Shown here: positions 5,501 to 62,908 of the stretch, piece after piece
Layout: the number at the start of each line of letters is the position of its first letter
Position numbering within the stretch: position 1 is the stretch's first letter
Source: Opitutaceae bacterium EW11
Lineage (GTDB): Bacteria; Verrucomicrobiota; Verrucomicrobiia; Opitutales; Opitutaceae
Direction: 5' to 3'
NCBI GenBank assembly: GCA_003054665.1
Contig: QAYY01000011.1
Location: 594,654-658,653, forward strand
DNA length: 64,000 nt
The notes under the pieces: model-generated
Told to the model about the DNA's origin: nothing
Database searches by the model: none
What the model saw: the letters and a program-made list of their open reading frames with translations, nothing else
Position numbers and translations under genes: made by a program

Positions 5501-5594
5501 TTTTGAGGGGAGCATTTTTTTGTCCGCAGAAATGGCCCACTTTTCGGAAAATGGAAAGCGTGCCGAAGGGGCAGCCGCCCCGCCGCGGGGCGGA

Positions 5595-5674
5595 GGAGTT
5601 GGAATTTGGGAATTGGAAGTTCGGACCAGGCGCGACGCTTGCGGCCAACTTCCAACCACCAATTTCCAACTTCC
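5595..5674. repeat. Inverted-repeat element with GAAGTTG-type heptamer arms
   Basis: Left arm 5595-5621 and right arm 5647-5674 pair with about 23 of 27 positions matching and one gap. Each arm is a run of degenerate 7-bp units (GGAGTTG, GAATTTG, GGAATTG, GAAGTTC on the left; TTGGAAA-like units in the complement on the right). GC-rich palindromic sequence flanks both arms. It fills most of the gap between tdh and the S9 peptidase stop. A single arm of the same family lies at 16148-16180. Too short to encode anything. Confidence 0.7.
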
Positions 5675-5695
5675 CCCGCCGCGTCCGCGGCGCGG

Positions 5696-12884: not shown

Positions 12885-13082
12885 AAGGGCTGAAAGGCTG
12901 AAGGACTGAAAGGCTGAAGCCGGAGAGCGCAGCTGTTTGCCTGGCTGCGTCGGGCCGCGGCCGTCCGGGCCGCATTCTAGAGGATGGCGTGCGGCACGCC
13001 CGGGCTCGCTGCGAGATCATGGGCCCCCTGGAACGCTTTCTCACTTCCTTCAGCCCTTCAGTCCTTCAGCCTTTCAGCCCTT
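12885..13082. repeat. Inverted-repeat element with near-perfect 35-bp octamer arms
   Basis: Left arm 12885-12919 and right arm 13048-13082 are reverse complements at 34 of 35 positions. Each arm is four tandem 8-bp units (AAGGGCTG, AAAGGCTG, AAGGACTG, AAAGGCTG) plus a partial fifth. The 128-bp GC-rich loop has no recognisable gene. The element fills the whole gap between hom (stop at 12875) and lysC (start at 13143). Related arms occur at 37911-38057, 55331-55440 and 62643-62908. Confidence 0.9.
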
Positions 13083-13142: not shown

Positions 13143-14363
13143 ATGGCACGCATCGTCCAAAAATACGGCGGCACCTCTGTAGGTGACGTCGAACGCATCA
13201 AAAAGGTCGCCGAGCGCATCAAGGCCGTTCGCGACGAAGGCAATGAACTCGTGGTCGTGGTGTCGGCCCGCGCCGGCGTCACGAACGAACTGATCGCGAG
13301 AGCTCAGGCCGTGTGCAAACAGCCGAGCGACCGCGAACTGGACATGCTCCTCGCCGTCGGCGAGCAGGAGACGATCGCACTCACCGCCATGGCGCTCCAC
13401 GGCGTCGGAGTCGACGCCATCAGCTACACGGGAGCCCAGGCCGGCATTTTCACGGACAAGATCCACACGAAGGCGAAGATCATGACCATCGACGCCCGCC
13501 CGATCGTGAAGGACCTCGAAGCGGGACGTGTCGTCATCGTTGCCGGTTTCCAAGGCATCAACGAAGACGGTCAGATCACGACGCTTGGCCGCGGAGGTTC
13601 CGACCTGACGGCGATCGCGCTGGCTGCCGCGGTGAAGGCCGATAAATGCGAGATCTATACCGACGTCGATGGCGTATACACCGCCGATCCGCGCGTGGTG
13701 AAGGACGCGAAGAAGCTCCAGGAGATTTCCTACGACGAGATGCTCGAACTCGCGTCGTCCGGCTCGAAGGTGATGCAGAGCCGCTCGGTCGAGTTCGCCA
13801 GCAAGTACAACGTCGTTTTTGAAGTGCGCAGCAGCTTTAACCACAATCCAGGAACCATCGTGAAACAAGAAGTCGCCTACATGGAGAAGGTCGTTGTCCG
13901 CGGCGTCGCGGTCGACAAGGACCAGGCCAAGATCGTCGTGAGCAACATCCTAGATAAGCCGGGCTCCGCGGCGAAGGTCTTCCGTGCGCTCGCCGATGCG
14001 AACATCATCGTCGACATGATCGTCCAGAACGTCGGTCGCAACGGCGTCGCCAATCTCACGTTCACGGTTCCGCAGACGGACTCGGTTCGTGCGCAGAAGG
14101 CCCTGGAGCCGGTCGTGCTCGAAATCGGCGGCGGCCACGTCGCGGTGCAGGATCAGATCGCGAAGCTTTCGGTTGTCGGCGTCGGCATGAAGACGCACTC
14201 CGGCGTCGCCGCGACGCTCTTCCAGGCTCTCGCCAACGTGGGGATCAACATCGACCTGATCTCGACGTCCGAGATCAAGATCACCGTCGCGATCGAGAAA
14301 GCCCGCGCCGACGAAGCCGCCCGCGCCGTCCACACCGCCTTCGAGCTGGACAAGCTGGGCTGA
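13143..14363 (+). CDS. lysC: Aspartate kinase
   Basis: A 406-residue monofunctional aspartokinase that phosphorylates L-aspartate, the entry to lysine, threonine and methionine synthesis. The kinase domain has the KYGGTSVGD nucleotide motif at the N terminus, GRGGSDLTAIALA and the TDVDGVYTADPRVV motif. Two tandem ACT domains follow (from about residue 265 and 340), matching the beta-type regulatory region that binds lysine and/or threonine. Lies between hom and thrC, each separated by a repeat element rather than by ordinary spacer. Confidence 0.96.
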   Translation: MARIVQKYGGTSVGDVERIKKVAERIKAVRDEGNELVVVVSARAGVTNELIARAQAVCKQPSDRELDMLLAVGEQETIALTAMALHGVGVDAISYTGAQAGIFTDKIHTKAKIMTIDARPIVKDLEAGRVVIVAGFQGINEDGQITTLGRGGSDLTAIALAAAVKADKCEIYTDVDGVYTADPRVVKDAKKLQEISYDEMLELASSGSKVMQSRSVEFASKYNVVFEVRSSFNHNPGTIVKQEVAYMEKVVVRGVAVDKDQAKIVVSNILDKPGSAAKVFRALADANIIVDMIVQNVGRNGVANLTFTVPQTDSVRAQKALEPVVLEIGGGHVAVQDQIAKLSVVGVGMKTHSGVAATLFQALANVGINIDLISTSEIKITVAIEKARADEAARAVHTAFELDKLG

Positions 14364-14364
14364 C

Positions 14365-14727
14365 CAGATGTCAGAAGGCAGAGGTCAGAGGCCAGAGGAA
14401 GCCGTCGAGGAATCTCGTCCCATCAGGCGCTTCTCCGGCCTCTTTGTTTGGCAGCGCATCTTCTACGTCGCTACCGAGGTTTTCGTAATCTCGAAGTCGT
14501 GGTCCCCTGATGAACGTTATTCCCTGACCGATCAGATACGCCGTTCAGCTCGGTCGTTAGGCGCCCATATCGCTGAGGTTTGGGGCAAGCGACCAGCTCT
14601 TGGAACAAGTTCGGCAAATGGGCAGGATGCACGGCGGCGTAATGGCCGATCCAACACCGTTTCTGCGTCGCTTGTAAGGGGACTGAATGCTGTTTTCTGA
14701 CATCCGACCTCTGACCTCCGACATCTG
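14365..14727. repeat. Inverted-repeat element with CAGAGGT-type heptamer arms enclosing a gene remnant
   Basis: Left arm 14365-14396 and right arm 14696-14727 pair at about 26 of 32 positions. Both arms are tandem degenerate 7-bp units (CAGATGT, CAGAAGG, CAGAGGT, CAGAGGC and so on). The left arm begins one base after the lysC stop and the right arm ends 13 bp before the thrC start, so the element occupies the entire 377-bp intergenic gap. The loop holds a damaged four-helix-bundle protein gene. Confidence 0.85.
14368..14677 (+). pseudogene. Four-helix-bundle (S23/IVS-type) protein remnant, internally deleted
   Basis: Frame 1 (from 14368) encodes the first two helices of the S23-like four-helix-bundle family: FVWQRIFYVATEVF, then SPDERYSLTDQIRRSARSL and GAHIAEVWGKR, ending at about 14592. 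The frame then becomes meaningless, but in the +1-shifted frame 14594-14677 encodes QLLEQVRQMGRMHGGVMADP, which matches the last helix of the same family, ending at TAA 14675. Roughly 40 residues (third helix) found in intact relatives are missing at the junction, so this is a deletion-frameshift remnant. Its apparent ATG lies inside the left inverted-repeat arm. Family proteins form pentamers and are best known from 23S rRNA intervening sequences and as Avd partners of diversity-generating retroelements; function mostly unknown. Confidence 0.75.
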
Positions 14728-14740
14728 ATCTCTGTCTCCC

Positions 14741-16102
14741 ATGCGCTTCATCTCCACTCGCGGACAGACATCGCCGCTCGGGTTTTCCGATGCGGTGGCC
14801 ACCGGCTTGGCTCCCGACGGAGGGCTTTTCCTGCCCGAGACTCTGCCGACGTTCACGGCGGCGGAGCTGACGCGTTTCGAGGGTCTCAAGTACGCGGAGC
14901 TTTGTTTCGATTTCCTTCAGCGGTTCGCGACCGATATTCCGGCCGGTGAACTGCGCGAGATCGTGCGGAAGTCATACACGACGTTTTCGCACCCCCAGAT
15001 CGCGCCGCTCGAGCAGCTCGGCGATAAGCTCTTTGTCTTGGAGTTGTTTCACGGCCCGACGCTCGCGTTCAAGGACTTCGCCCTCCAACTGCTGGGCAAT
15101 CTCTACGAGCGCCAATGCCGGGTTCGCGGCGAAACGATCAACGTGCTCGGGGCGACCTCCGGCGACACCGGCGCGGCCGCGATTCACGGACTGCTCGGCA
15201 AACCGGGCACCGCCATCTTCATCCTCTATCCGGACGGCCGCGTTTCACCTCTCCAGGAACGCCAGATGGCCTGCACGGGCGCCTCGAACGTTTTCGCCCT
15301 CGCGGTGGACGGTACCTTCGACGACGCGCAGGCGGCGCTGAAGGACGTGTTCGGCGACCAAGCCTTCCGCACCCGGCACCGGCTGTCGGCGGTGAACTCG
15401 ATCAACCTGGCCCGTGTGTTGGCTCAGTGCGTGTATTACCTCTACGCCTGGCTTCGCCTTCCTCCGAAAATCCGGACCGAAGTCGAGTTTGTCGTTCCGA
15501 CGGGCAACTTCGGAAACGTATTGGCGGGTTGGATGCTTCAGAAGATGGGCGTGCCGATCCGGGGCTTCCGCGTCGCGACCAACCAGAACGACATTCTCTA
15601 CCGGCTCTTCACCACCGGCGAGTATCGGGTGGCGGATGTGCATCCGAGCCTGGCTCCCTCGATGGACATCCAGGTGGCGTCGAATTTCGAGCGTTTCCTT
15701 TATTACAGCGTGGGCTGCAATCCTGAGCGCGTCCGCTCGATCATGCACACGTTCAAGTCGACCGGCGCCTATGTCTTCGACGCCTTCGACCGCGACAGCT
15801 TCACCGCTTCGTGCACCACCGACGCGGAGATCTCCGGGATCATCAAGCACGTGTACCAAAAGTACGGCTACACGGTCGATCCCCACACCGCGTGCGGTTT
15901 CAAGGACCTTGATCCCGCCAAGCCGACCGTCGTCCTCTCGACCGCCAGTCCGGCGAAGTTTCCCGAGACGATCGTCGCCGCCACCGGGCGGGAACCGACC
16001 GATCCGGCCCTCGAAGCGCTCAAGTCCAGATCCATCGTCAAACACCGGATCCAGGCGACTCCCGCCGCGATCAAGGCGTTCATCGACGAGCGGGCGGTTT
16101 GA
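14741..16102 (+). CDS. thrC: Threonine synthase
   Basis: A 453-residue PLP enzyme converting O-phosphohomoserine to threonine, the last step of the pathway begun by lysC and hom upstream. N-terminal MRFISTRGQTSPLGF, the PLP-lysine motif FHGPTLAFKDFALQ, the phosphate-binding GATSGDTGAAA and the NSINLARVLAQ segment are characteristic of the long (class I/yeast-like) ThrC type. ATG 14741 follows the repeat arm by 13 bp. Homoserine kinase (thrB) is not in the window. Confidence 0.95.
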   Translation: MRFISTRGQTSPLGFSDAVATGLAPDGGLFLPETLPTFTAAELTRFEGLKYAELCFDFLQRFATDIPAGELREIVRKSYTTFSHPQIAPLEQLGDKLFVLELFHGPTLAFKDFALQLLGNLYERQCRVRGETINVLGATSGDTGAAAIHGLLGKPGTAIFILYPDGRVSPLQERQMACTGASNVFALAVDGTFDDAQAALKDVFGDQAFRTRHRLSAVNSINLARVLAQCVYYLYAWLRLPPKIRTEVEFVVPTGNFGNVLAGWMLQKMGVPIRGFRVATNQNDILYRLFTTGEYRVADVHPSLAPSMDIQVASNFERFLYYSVGCNPERVRSIMHTFKSTGAYVFDAFDRDSFTASCTTDAEISGIIKHVYQKYGYTVDPHTACGFKDLDPAKPTVVLSTASPAKFPETIVAATGREPTDPALEALKSRSIVKHRIQATPAAIKAFIDERAV

Positions 16103-37898: not shown

Positions 37899-37910
37899 GG
37901 CGGAAAAGGA

Positions 37911-38057
37911 AAGCTGAAGGACTGAAAGGCTGAAGGGCGGAAAAAAAGGCGGGTTCGACGCGGGTGGAAAAGTGAACGGAGTGGGGGAGAAGCTTGGGCG
38001 GAAAAGCGGCGGTTTCGAATCCTTCAGCCTTTCAGCCCTTCATTTCTTCAGCCCTTT
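37911..38057. repeat. Inverted-repeat element, octamer (GGCTGAAG) family
   Basis: Left arm 37911-37936 and right arm 38021-38057 are built of units such as AGGACTGA, AAGGCTGA and their complements; about 22 of 28 aligned positions match as reverse complements. It spans the entire thrS-cysS gap, and the right arm runs into the 3' end of cysS, supplying its last Lys-Gly codons and stop (AAGGGCTGA on the minus strand). Confidence 0.75.
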
Positions 38058-55009: not shown

Positions 55010-55348
55010 ATGATTCCCGGTGAAATCATTGTCGTGGCCGACGAAGCGCCGCTTGACGCGAACATCGGCCTCGAGACGGTCACGATCGACGTGGTGAACA
55101 CCGGCGACCGTCCGATCCAGGTCGGATCGCATTTCCACTTCTTCGAAGTCAACGAGGCGTTGCACTTCGACCGTGCCGGCTCTCGGGGTTTCCGGCTGAA
55201 CATTCCGGCGGGCACCGCGGTGCGTTTCGAAGCCGGGGACAAAAAGCGCGTCGAACTCGTCGCCCTCGCCGGTACGCGGCAGGTGTACGGCCTCAACGGC
55301 AAGGTGAATGGGTACCTCGAACCAAAGGCGGAAGGACTGAAGGGCTGA
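55010..55348 (+). CDS. ureB: Urease beta subunit
   Basis: A 112-residue beta subunit ([58 protein letters not shown]). ATG 55010 aligns with the family. The C terminus reads [11 protein letters not shown]-stop: the final residues are encoded by the left arm of the octamer repeat at 55331, which therefore provides the stop codon. The structural core ends before this, so function should not be affected. Confidence 0.96.
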
Positions 55349-55440
55349 AAGGCTGAATCGAACCGCATCGTTCACCCCCAACGTTCGTCTCCTCCGCGCG
55401 CCTCCTTCAGCCCTTCAGTCCTTTGGCCCTTCAGCCCTTT
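55331..55440. repeat. Inverted-repeat element, octamer family, overlapping ureB 3' end
   Basis: An 18-bp perfect core (AAGGACTGAAGGGCTGAA at 55332-55349 with its complement at 55406-55423), extended by further degenerate units on both sides. The left arm overlaps the last codons of ureB and the right arm ends 7 bp before the ureC start, so the element is the whole ureB-ureC gap. Confidence 0.85.
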
Positions 55441-55447
55441 TCCTCCC

Positions 55448-57211
55448 ATGCTCTCCCTCACCCGACGCCAATACGCTGAGATGTTCGGTCCCACCCTCGG
55501 TGATCGTGTCCGACTGGCGGATACGGAGCTCGTCGTGGAAGTCGAGCGCGACCTGATCGCCGAGCGCGGCGGCTACGGCAACGAAATCAAGTTCGGCGGT
55601 GGCAAGGTCATCCGCGACGGCATGGGGCAGTCGCCAAACGCTTCGGATGCCGACTCGCTCGATCTGGTCATCACCAACGCGCTGATCCTCGATCCGGTTC
55701 TCGGCGTCGTCAAAGCCGACATCGGAATCAAACACGGCGTCATCGTCGGCATCGGGCACGCCGGGAATCCCGGCATCCAGGATGGGATTGGCTCCGCGTA
55801 TCCGGAGCCGCGCACGGGAAAACCGAATCCGATGATTGTCGGCGCCTGCACGGAAGTGCTCGCGGGCGAAGGCTGTATCGTCACGGCGGGAGGGATCGAC
55901 ACCCACATCCATTTCATCTGCCCGCAGCAGATCGAAGAGGCGATTTCCAGCGGGGTGACGACGATGCTCGGCGGCGGCACGGGACCGGCGACCGGCACGT
56001 TCGCGACGACGTGCACGCCGGGTCGTTGGAACATCCACCGCATGCTCCAGGCGGCGGAGGCTTATCCGATGAATCTCGGATTCCTCGGAAAGGGAAATTG
56101 CGCCACGCCCGGTCCCTTGCGCGAACAGGTGCTGGCAGGGGCCATCGGCCTCAAACTCCACGAGGACTGGGGAACGACGCCGGCTGCGATCGACACCTGC
56201 CTCGCGGTGGCCGATGAACTCGATGTCCAGGTGGCGATTCACACCGACACGCTCAACGAGGCGGGTTTTGTCGACGAAACCATCCGTGCCTTCAAGGGCC
56301 GCGCGATTCACACCTACCACTCGGAAGGTGCCGGGGGCGGGCACGCGCCGGACATCATCCGTGTCTGCGGCGAGGCGAACGTCCTGCCATCGTCGACGAA
56401 TCCGACGCGTCCGTTCACCGTGAATACGATCGACGAGCATCTCGACATGCTCATGGTCTGCCATCACCTCGACGCGAAGATTCCCGAGGACGTGGCGTTC
56501 GCAGAGTCCCGGATTCGGCCGGAGACCATCGCGGCGGAGGATTGCCTGCACGACCTCGGCGCCATCTCGATGATGTCGAGCGACAGTCAGGCGATGGGCA
56601 GGGTGGGCGAGGTGATCATCCGGACGTGGCAGACCGCTCACAAGATGAAGGTCCAGTTTGGCCGCCTCTCAGGGCCATCGCATCCGGCGGCCGACAACTT
56701 CCGTGCCCTACGGTACCTCGCGAAATACACCCTGAATCCCGCGATCACACACGGCATTCGACATATCGTCGGGTCGCTCGAGGTCGGCAAACTTGCCGAT
56801 ATCGTGGTATTCAAACCGGCACTCTTCGGAGTGAAACCCGAACTGGTGCTCAAGGGCGGCTTCATCGCCTGGGCGAACATGGGCGATCCCAATGCATCGA
56901 TCCCGACGCCGCAGCCGACGTTCTACCGTCCGCAGTTCGGCGCGGCTGGGCGGGCGTTGTCCGCCACGAACGTGACGTTCGTCAGCGAGGCGGCCCTGCG
57001 CGCGGGATCCGTCGCCGAACTGGGGCTGCAGCGACGGGTCGAGGCGGTGCGGAGCTGCCGCACGATCACGAAGCGCGACATGGTTCTCAACGACGCTCTG
57101 CCGAAAATCGAGGTGGATCCGGAAACCTACACCGTCAAGGCCGACGGCCACGTGCTCACCTGCGAGCCCGCAAAGAGCCTTCCGATGGCCCAGCGGTACT
57201 TTTTGTTCTAG
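55448..57211 (+). CDS. ureC: Urease alpha (catalytic) subunit
   Basis: A 587-residue nickel amidohydrolase producing ammonia and carbamate from urea. Nickel ligands and active-site residues are all present: H153 and H155 (DTHIHF), the carbamylated K236 (GLKLHEDWG), H265, H291, the mobile-flap C338-H339 (MVCHHL) and the D in SSDSQAMGR. It is about 15-20 residues longer than the Klebsiella protein, mainly from an insertion near 110-130 ([13 protein letters not shown]). The stop codon lies within a palindrome. Confidence 0.98.
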
Positions 57212-57266
57212 GGCGTGTTTGCAGAACGGGAAGCAGAGCGTTTCCCATTTTGCAGACACGCCCTAG
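57208..57266. repeat. Long palindrome at the ureC/murI junction
   Basis: Left half 57208-57232 and right half 57242-57266 are reverse complements at 22 of 25 positions with a 9-base centre, beginning and ending CTAGGGCGTGT/ACACGCCCTAG. It includes the ureC stop codon and ends 10 bp before the murI stop. No T tract on either strand. Bidirectional terminator or a small palindromic repeat; it is unrelated to the TCAG-rich families. Confidence 0.75.
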
Positions 57267-62603: not shown

Positions 62604-62642
62604 GGGAGAAGAAAGGCGGAAAGGCAGAAGGGCTGGAAGAGG

Positions 62643-62908
62643 AAAAAGGCTGAAGGGCTGAAAGGCTGAAGGTCTGACGGAAGAAAAACGGCTGAGGAGT
62701 AGCGGGACGCAAGGGGCGAACCGCATCAGCATGCGCTTAGCAGCCTAGTTCGTGAGAGTATCGCAGCGCACCGCGATGCAAAGTCTGGTTCGGCGATCTG
62801 ACGATTTCGCCTGCCTTCCGGCGCGAGATCCAACGGCAGCGCGCCGCCAACGGCTACCGCCGGATTTGTCCTCAGCCCTTCAGCCTTTCAGTCCTTCAGC
62901 CCTTTGCC
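62643..62908. repeat. Inverted-repeat element, octamer family, between hprK and rph
   Basis: Left arm ~62644-62681 (units AAGGCTGA, AGGGCTGA, AAGGCTGA) and right arm 62871-62908 match as reverse complements at about 33 of 37 positions. Additional weaker units (AAAGGCGG, AAAGGCAG) extend left to ~62610. The ~190-bp loop has no recognisable gene. The right arm abuts the hprK stop codon at 62909. With flanks this is a 305-bp gene-free stretch. Confidence 0.85.

Follow-up and report, generated by a model that had tools for sequence, protein, structure and literature searches.

What occupies the space between lysC and thrC in Opitutaceae bacterium EW11? Within the window, by which we mean the whole stretch of 64,000 nucleotides that was analysed, the lysC stop codon ends at 14363 and the thrC ATG lies at 14741, and all 377 bp between them are taken up by one element with the following parts:

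14364 to 14740, plus strand: the whole element, identical with the entire lysC-thrC gap (377 bp)
14365 to 14396, plus strand: left arm of inverted repeat I1, period 7, about 4.6 degenerate heptamers (CAGATGT CAGAAGG CAGAGGT CAGAGGC CAGA)
14422 to 14592, plus strand: N-terminal part of the S23 (PF05635) remnant, comprising helices 1-2 (57 aa)
14591 to 14674, plus strand: C-terminal helix of the remnant, read in the next frame (DQLLEQVRQMGRMHGGVMADPTPFLRRL, ended by a stop) and aligned to intact homologues
14703 to 14734, minus strand: right arm of I1, inverted copy, period 7, about 4.6 heptamers

The two arms, 32 nt each and 306 nt apart, are 78% complementary, and both are period-7 arrays of CAGAGGT-like heptamers; the arm score of the locus is 17.5, against a maximum of 13.5 in 60 shuffles. 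The loop ORF matches positions 3-53 of the 106-position PF05635 profile (23S_rRNA_IVP, E=1.8e-11), and TIGR02436 as well, and the N-terminal 57 residues of the remnant are 63-65% identical to intact homologues occupying the same gap in relatives (65% in G030). Between this part and the C-terminal helix, the roughly 39 residues of helix 3 are absent. A first-pass annotation of this DNA had read the gap as a single element, with two 32-bp heptamer arms pairing as an inverted repeat around an S23 gene that has lost its third helix and continues with the C-terminal helix in the next frame; the extent and complementarity of the arms and the alignment to homologues bear it out on each of these points. 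Its start at 14365 stands, and its end at 14727 falls 7 nt short. The locus is probably the decayed form of a small selfish element measuring about 400-550 bp when intact.

The lysC-thrC gap among relatives

In the 30 genomes in which the gap was compared, our own and 29 relatives, it is filled in 7 of the 29 (G049, G050, G002, G030, G006, G022 and G031) by an intact S23 element whose arms are of the [TC]CAGAGG type, and G102 likewise has an S23 element there. In the remaining relatives the gap is 8-84 bp long without S23, or contains unrelated hairpins, and in several of them lysC is not adjacent to thrC. The first-pass annotation had looked for its mobile-unit reading to arms around intact homologues and to strain differences at this junction. 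Such arms are present, including CAGAGGY arms at lysC-thrC in other genomes, and occupied and empty gaps both occur; the target-site duplications that it had also considered were not found.

All S23 proteins from lysC-thrC fall into one clade, with related units, so that site-directed reinsertion and one old insertion with later losses are equally possible. An insertion in an ancestor within the Opitutaceae with repeated loss thereafter, which would be compatible with mobility elsewhere, is an account that we regard as tentative and somewhat less probable than its opposite: other hairpin types occupy the gap in some genera, G006 and G053 differ within one genus, the backbone forks of the S23 tree are not resolved, and the exchange of a cassette at another site between G050 and G002, described below, is left unexplained by it. 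At L149, L155, L158, L154 and L144, the lysC-thrC gap carries arms of a CTTTCT hexamer, of GCGCAAAG, of GC-rich GGTAGGGCCGGC and of CACAGAG, possibly representing further element families.

The S23 gene between inverted arrays

How general is this layout? Within the family, 126 of the 150 genomes contain PF05635, and to these we added 80 further S23 loci spread over many phyla, one of them from an archaeal record (L113); this cross-phylum set was obtained with one subfamily query. To score arms, the 200 nt preceding the gene were aligned with the 200 nt following it, and the best complementary match had to reach a score of 12 or more. By this measure, 75% of 108 S23 loci have inverted arms, as against 3% of 534 offset control positions on the same contigs (MWU p=1e-43), about a quarter of the loci being without arms at the score threshold used, on which detection depends, and many of the compared genomes being draft assemblies. 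Tandem arrays on both sides (z of at least 4) accompany 50% of S23 loci and 0.4% of controls; their period is 7 in 133 of 179 arrays and 8 in 31. An arm usually comprises 4-5 units (median 34 nt for period 7), and each heptamer has a set of fixed positions, most commonly five, with the remaining ones varying. The elements fill gaps between genes from just past the stop up to just before the start, with a median of 2.5 nt from upstream stop to arm and 10 nt from arm to downstream start. We consider it likely that an intact element consists of one S23 four-helix-bundle gene between inverted arrays of a 7- or 8-nt repeat. The cassette family spans bacterial phyla and is apparently an undescribed kind of mobile DNA; in agreement with the first-pass annotation, which knew of no such family, chromosomal S23 elements with heptamer arms are not described in the full-text literature searched, which includes few subscription papers and no bioRxiv.

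Could the arms be ordinary simple-sequence repeats that arose beside an unrelated small gene? Unit number does shift between species by exactly 8 nt, so slippage does occur. However, comparable arms are lacking at the control positions, the upstream unit resembles the inverted downstream unit more closely within an element (similarity 0.73) than between elements (0.48), and the arms track the protein subfamily, so that we regard this explanation as refuted.

A second alternative is that the element acts as RNA in the manner of the intervening sequences of rRNA, with a stem that is cut from the transcript by RNase III and is itself selected. The arrangement of a gene within a stem is the same in the two cases; the Coxiella rRNA intervening sequence, cut by RNase III, carries tandem GACAGAT heptamers immediately before its S23 start (PMC4990558); and RNA of the window locus has a better fold than its shuffled versions (z=-2.9), with the arm stem present in the predicted fold. 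However, mismatches between arms are not of the kind that G:U pairing on the sense transcript would tolerate, as they comprise 131 G:U against 190 A.C, a deviation (p=0.001) in the direction opposite to selection for an RNA stem. RNA pairing is not the selected property of the arms. Nor are the neighbouring genes more often co-directional than the background (arranged ++ in 81 of 128 cases versus 61 of 99), which also disposes of an operon-orientation bias of insertion, and the rRNA signature motifs searched for were carried by none of the S23 loci. Action as RNA is thus very unlikely.

Exchange of cassettes and gene-less copies

Comparison of the close species G050 and G002 uncovers a replaced cassette. 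At one gap, which separates two conserved genes, the flanks are mostly 97-100% identical right up to the cassette, and the S23 genes within have a pS of 0.86, with units GCGGAAT and TTTTCGA, respectively; the G050 gene of this swapped cassette groups with a gene from another genus. At a second gap shared by the two genomes, G002 has an S23 element whose arms are AAATTCC arrays, and G050 has a gene-less octamer hairpin instead; at atpH-atpA an S23 element is present in G050 and absent in G002. Likewise, an atpA-atpG element of G102 is missing in its congener G079. Several elements are common to more than one species by descent. Element junctions have no target-site duplication, the longest candidates being 0-3 nt. 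Cassettes behave as mobile units, gene and arms being exchanged together between species, as the first-pass annotation had proposed when treating them as one unit.

Copies without a gene also occur. In G079, the S23 element L184 is accompanied by ten gene-less hairpins at unrelated sites, which share with it a 38-nt 5' terminus (91.5% similar) and a 3' terminus (71%), compared with 37-38% similarity outside. In the same genome, short GC-rich segments such as GGCGAGGCAAAGCCTCGCC recur in the loops of the gene-less copies L364, L366, L367, L369 and L371 and may belong to a second repeat family nested within them.

The 6.4-Mb host genome has three PF05635 loci, all of them between inverted tandem arrays and each with a different unit:

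S23 locus L001: arms of GAAGTTG heptamers
S23 locus L002, between atpA and atpG: arms of CTGAAGGN octamers
S23 locus of the window (lysC-thrC): arms of CAGAGGT heptamers

The window further contains, listed here without strand, hairpins whose loops have no S23 similarity and one single array found by the tandem-array search:

5592 to 5676: hairpin of TTGGAAN heptamers without a gene; its unit resembles that of the L001 arms
12885 to 13082: hairpin of CTGAARGN octamers without a gene, located between hom and lysC; its unit is that of the S23 gene L002
16149 to 16176: single TTGGAAN-type heptamer array, after thrC
37909 to 38056: gene-less octamer hairpin
55324 to 55439: gene-less octamer hairpin
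62611 to 62908: gene-less octamer hairpin

The first-pass annotation had taken these other hairpins for decayed copies of the lysC-thrC element. This reading is not supported, because their units, a CTGAARGN octamer or a TTGGAAN heptamer, match those of L002 and L001, the genome's two other S23 genes, and because a search of their loops for S23 remnants found none. Two side observations concern further repeats: window positions 57208-57266 form a palindrome with 25-nt arms, 88% complementary (CTAGGGCGTGTTTGCAGAACGGGAA), which is not tandem and is unrelated to the S23 arms, and G000 has at C2:350881-350980 (L374) a single array in which 13 or more octamers (CTTCAGCC) follow one another without a mismatch, far above the usual length of 4-5 units.

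Where the gene is intact, the protein is maintained by purifying selection, since four of five S23 ortholog pairs between G050 and G002 together show 14 synonymous changes and 1 nonsynonymous change. In the gene-less octamer arrays that these genomes share, CTGAA is conserved as the core, the 3-nt spacer diverges rapidly, and the number of copies varies in steps of 8 nt. Such constancy of unit cores amid changing spacers, together with the selection on S23 and the recurrence of the L002 clade in gaps of the ATP synthase operon, would also be expected if S23 were a host regulator, its arms being operators for autoregulation and the gene-less arrays the sites of a regulon at gene ends. Against this stand the patchy distribution, with sister species differing in presence, the exchange of a whole cassette between species, the apparent location of some arrays within coding genes, and the lack of any single array type from most genomes of the family; we therefore hold a regulatory role to be unlikely and favour a mobile element.

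The S23 genes of the L002 clade (L220-L239, L174) lie in ATP synthase gaps that differ by genus, namely atpH-atpA, atpA-atpG, atpG-atpD and atpD-atpC. In G050, single octamer arrays of about four units (L281, L282, L285, L286, L287 and L293) apparently lie within coding genes, one of these arrays being located in a signal peptide. The arrays at L282 and L290 are 8 nt apart in length between G050 and G002, a difference in unit number that would shift the reading frame within a gene and possibly permit phase variation.

Matched proteins and units, and the nearest known systems

Which property ties a given S23 protein to its arms? Unit similarity climbs from 0.40 to 0.80 with protein identity, clearly so in the sense orientation only, and protein and unit are correlated both overall (Mantel r=0.36) and among cross-phylum pairs only (r=0.38; p<=0.001 for both), with strand polarity kept. 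Horizontal spread of a matched protein-unit pair fits these figures best, over local drift of the repeats. Every one of the 9 genomes that encode an L002-like S23 (at least 56% identity) has octamer arrays, as against 21 of 141 others (p=1.7e-7, kinship ignored), and the reversed control pattern of the octamer was absent from every genome searched. For the L001 unit, a clear L001-like S23 exists in only one other genome (G005), and the TTGGRAN pattern is shared with another S23 clade. The host genome has 81 repeat-pattern matches, with inverted pairs among the arrays, such genome-wide counts being pattern searches that include overlapping matches and the elements' own arms. The pairing of subfamily and unit amounts to a direct prediction of binding for hundreds of S23 proteins, and many tandem 7- and 8-mer hairpins in genomes of environmental bacteria would find an explanation.

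The function of S23 proteins is not known (PMC4990558). Structure entries of the S23 relatives 2GSC and 2RLD have five chains each, and XCC0516 is a homopentamer according to the literature; a pentamer seated on the four to five tandem units of each arm would be an attractive model. We suggest that an S23 homopentamer would bind the repeats arrayed in its own arms, as DNA or single-stranded DNA, and in doing so pair the two ends of the element, whereupon replication or repair enzymes of the host might copy or insert it, and in trans its gene-less relatives too. Among the neighbour families listed, neither a recombinase nor a reverse transcriptase nor a recurrent partner stands out, and the 25 commonest include no reverse transcriptase; a recurrent partner gene was discarded as a candidate, as the commonest families listed match just 5 of 119 neighbours. 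It is for want of a recombinase or reverse transcriptase among these families that we provisionally ascribe catalysis to host enzymes. In our judgement, the likely account is one of selfish elements akin to rRNA intervening sequences, whose S23 protein recognises its own arms and whose gene-less copies spread. Towards the wider proposal we lean only slightly: a transposase-less family that crosses phyla, with a non-enzymatic pentamer, a protein-to-heptamer code, reliance on host enzymes, MITE-like copies, and rRNA intervening sequences as one branch. If true, it would add to the known kinds a mobile element without a recognisable recombinase.

Among known systems, diversity-generating retroelements come into view through their Avd proteins, which are structurally homologous to PF05635 proteins (PMC10053308); no reverse transcriptase appears among the 25 commonest neighbour families listed for S23 loci. 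The TAACTGA heptamer repeats of Beggiatoaceae and cyanobacteria are similar in being intergenic, tandem and patchily distributed, but their description (PMC4679880) gives them as directly repeated apart from one inverted case and mentions neither S23 nor four-helix proteins. Like MITEs, the cassettes have gene-less copies that share the terminal inverted repeats of a coding copy in the same genome (L184 and its ten copies in G079; the octamers with L002); unlike MITEs, they have neither a target-site duplication (0-3 nt at junctions) nor a transposase, and their termini are tandem arrays.

RAYTs are catalytic HuH transposases, and the repeat types of REPINs differ between species. S23 cassettes resemble the REPIN/RAYT system (PMC3116915) in their extragenic, high-copy inverted pairs of short repeats that multiply with one cognate protein. 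Their gene, however, is a PF05635 gene and not a RAYT, encoding a small helical bundle without known catalytic residues, and the repeats are tandem 7- or 8-mers, whereas REPs are palindromic. By this analogy, S23 cassettes would work like REPINs with their RAYTs, minus the transposase.

Of the known kinds, the intervening sequence of 23S rRNA that bears an S23 gene, as in Coxiella and Leptospira, comes closest; it is regarded as selfish and horizontally acquired (PMC4990558). Common to both are an S23-family gene in the loop, a remnant at lysC-thrC and intact in its relatives, and flanking inverted repeats that can form a stem. Intervening sequences, however, reside in helix 9, 25 or 45 of 23S rRNA, whereas our element lies between lysC and thrC, and both of its arms are tandem arrays; with gene and stem in common and the rRNA location not, we do not file the cassettes as rRNA intervening sequences. 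Rather, the S23-bearing intervening sequences may be members of the family that landed in 23S rRNA, relative to which the gene-less copies and the matching of protein to unit are new.
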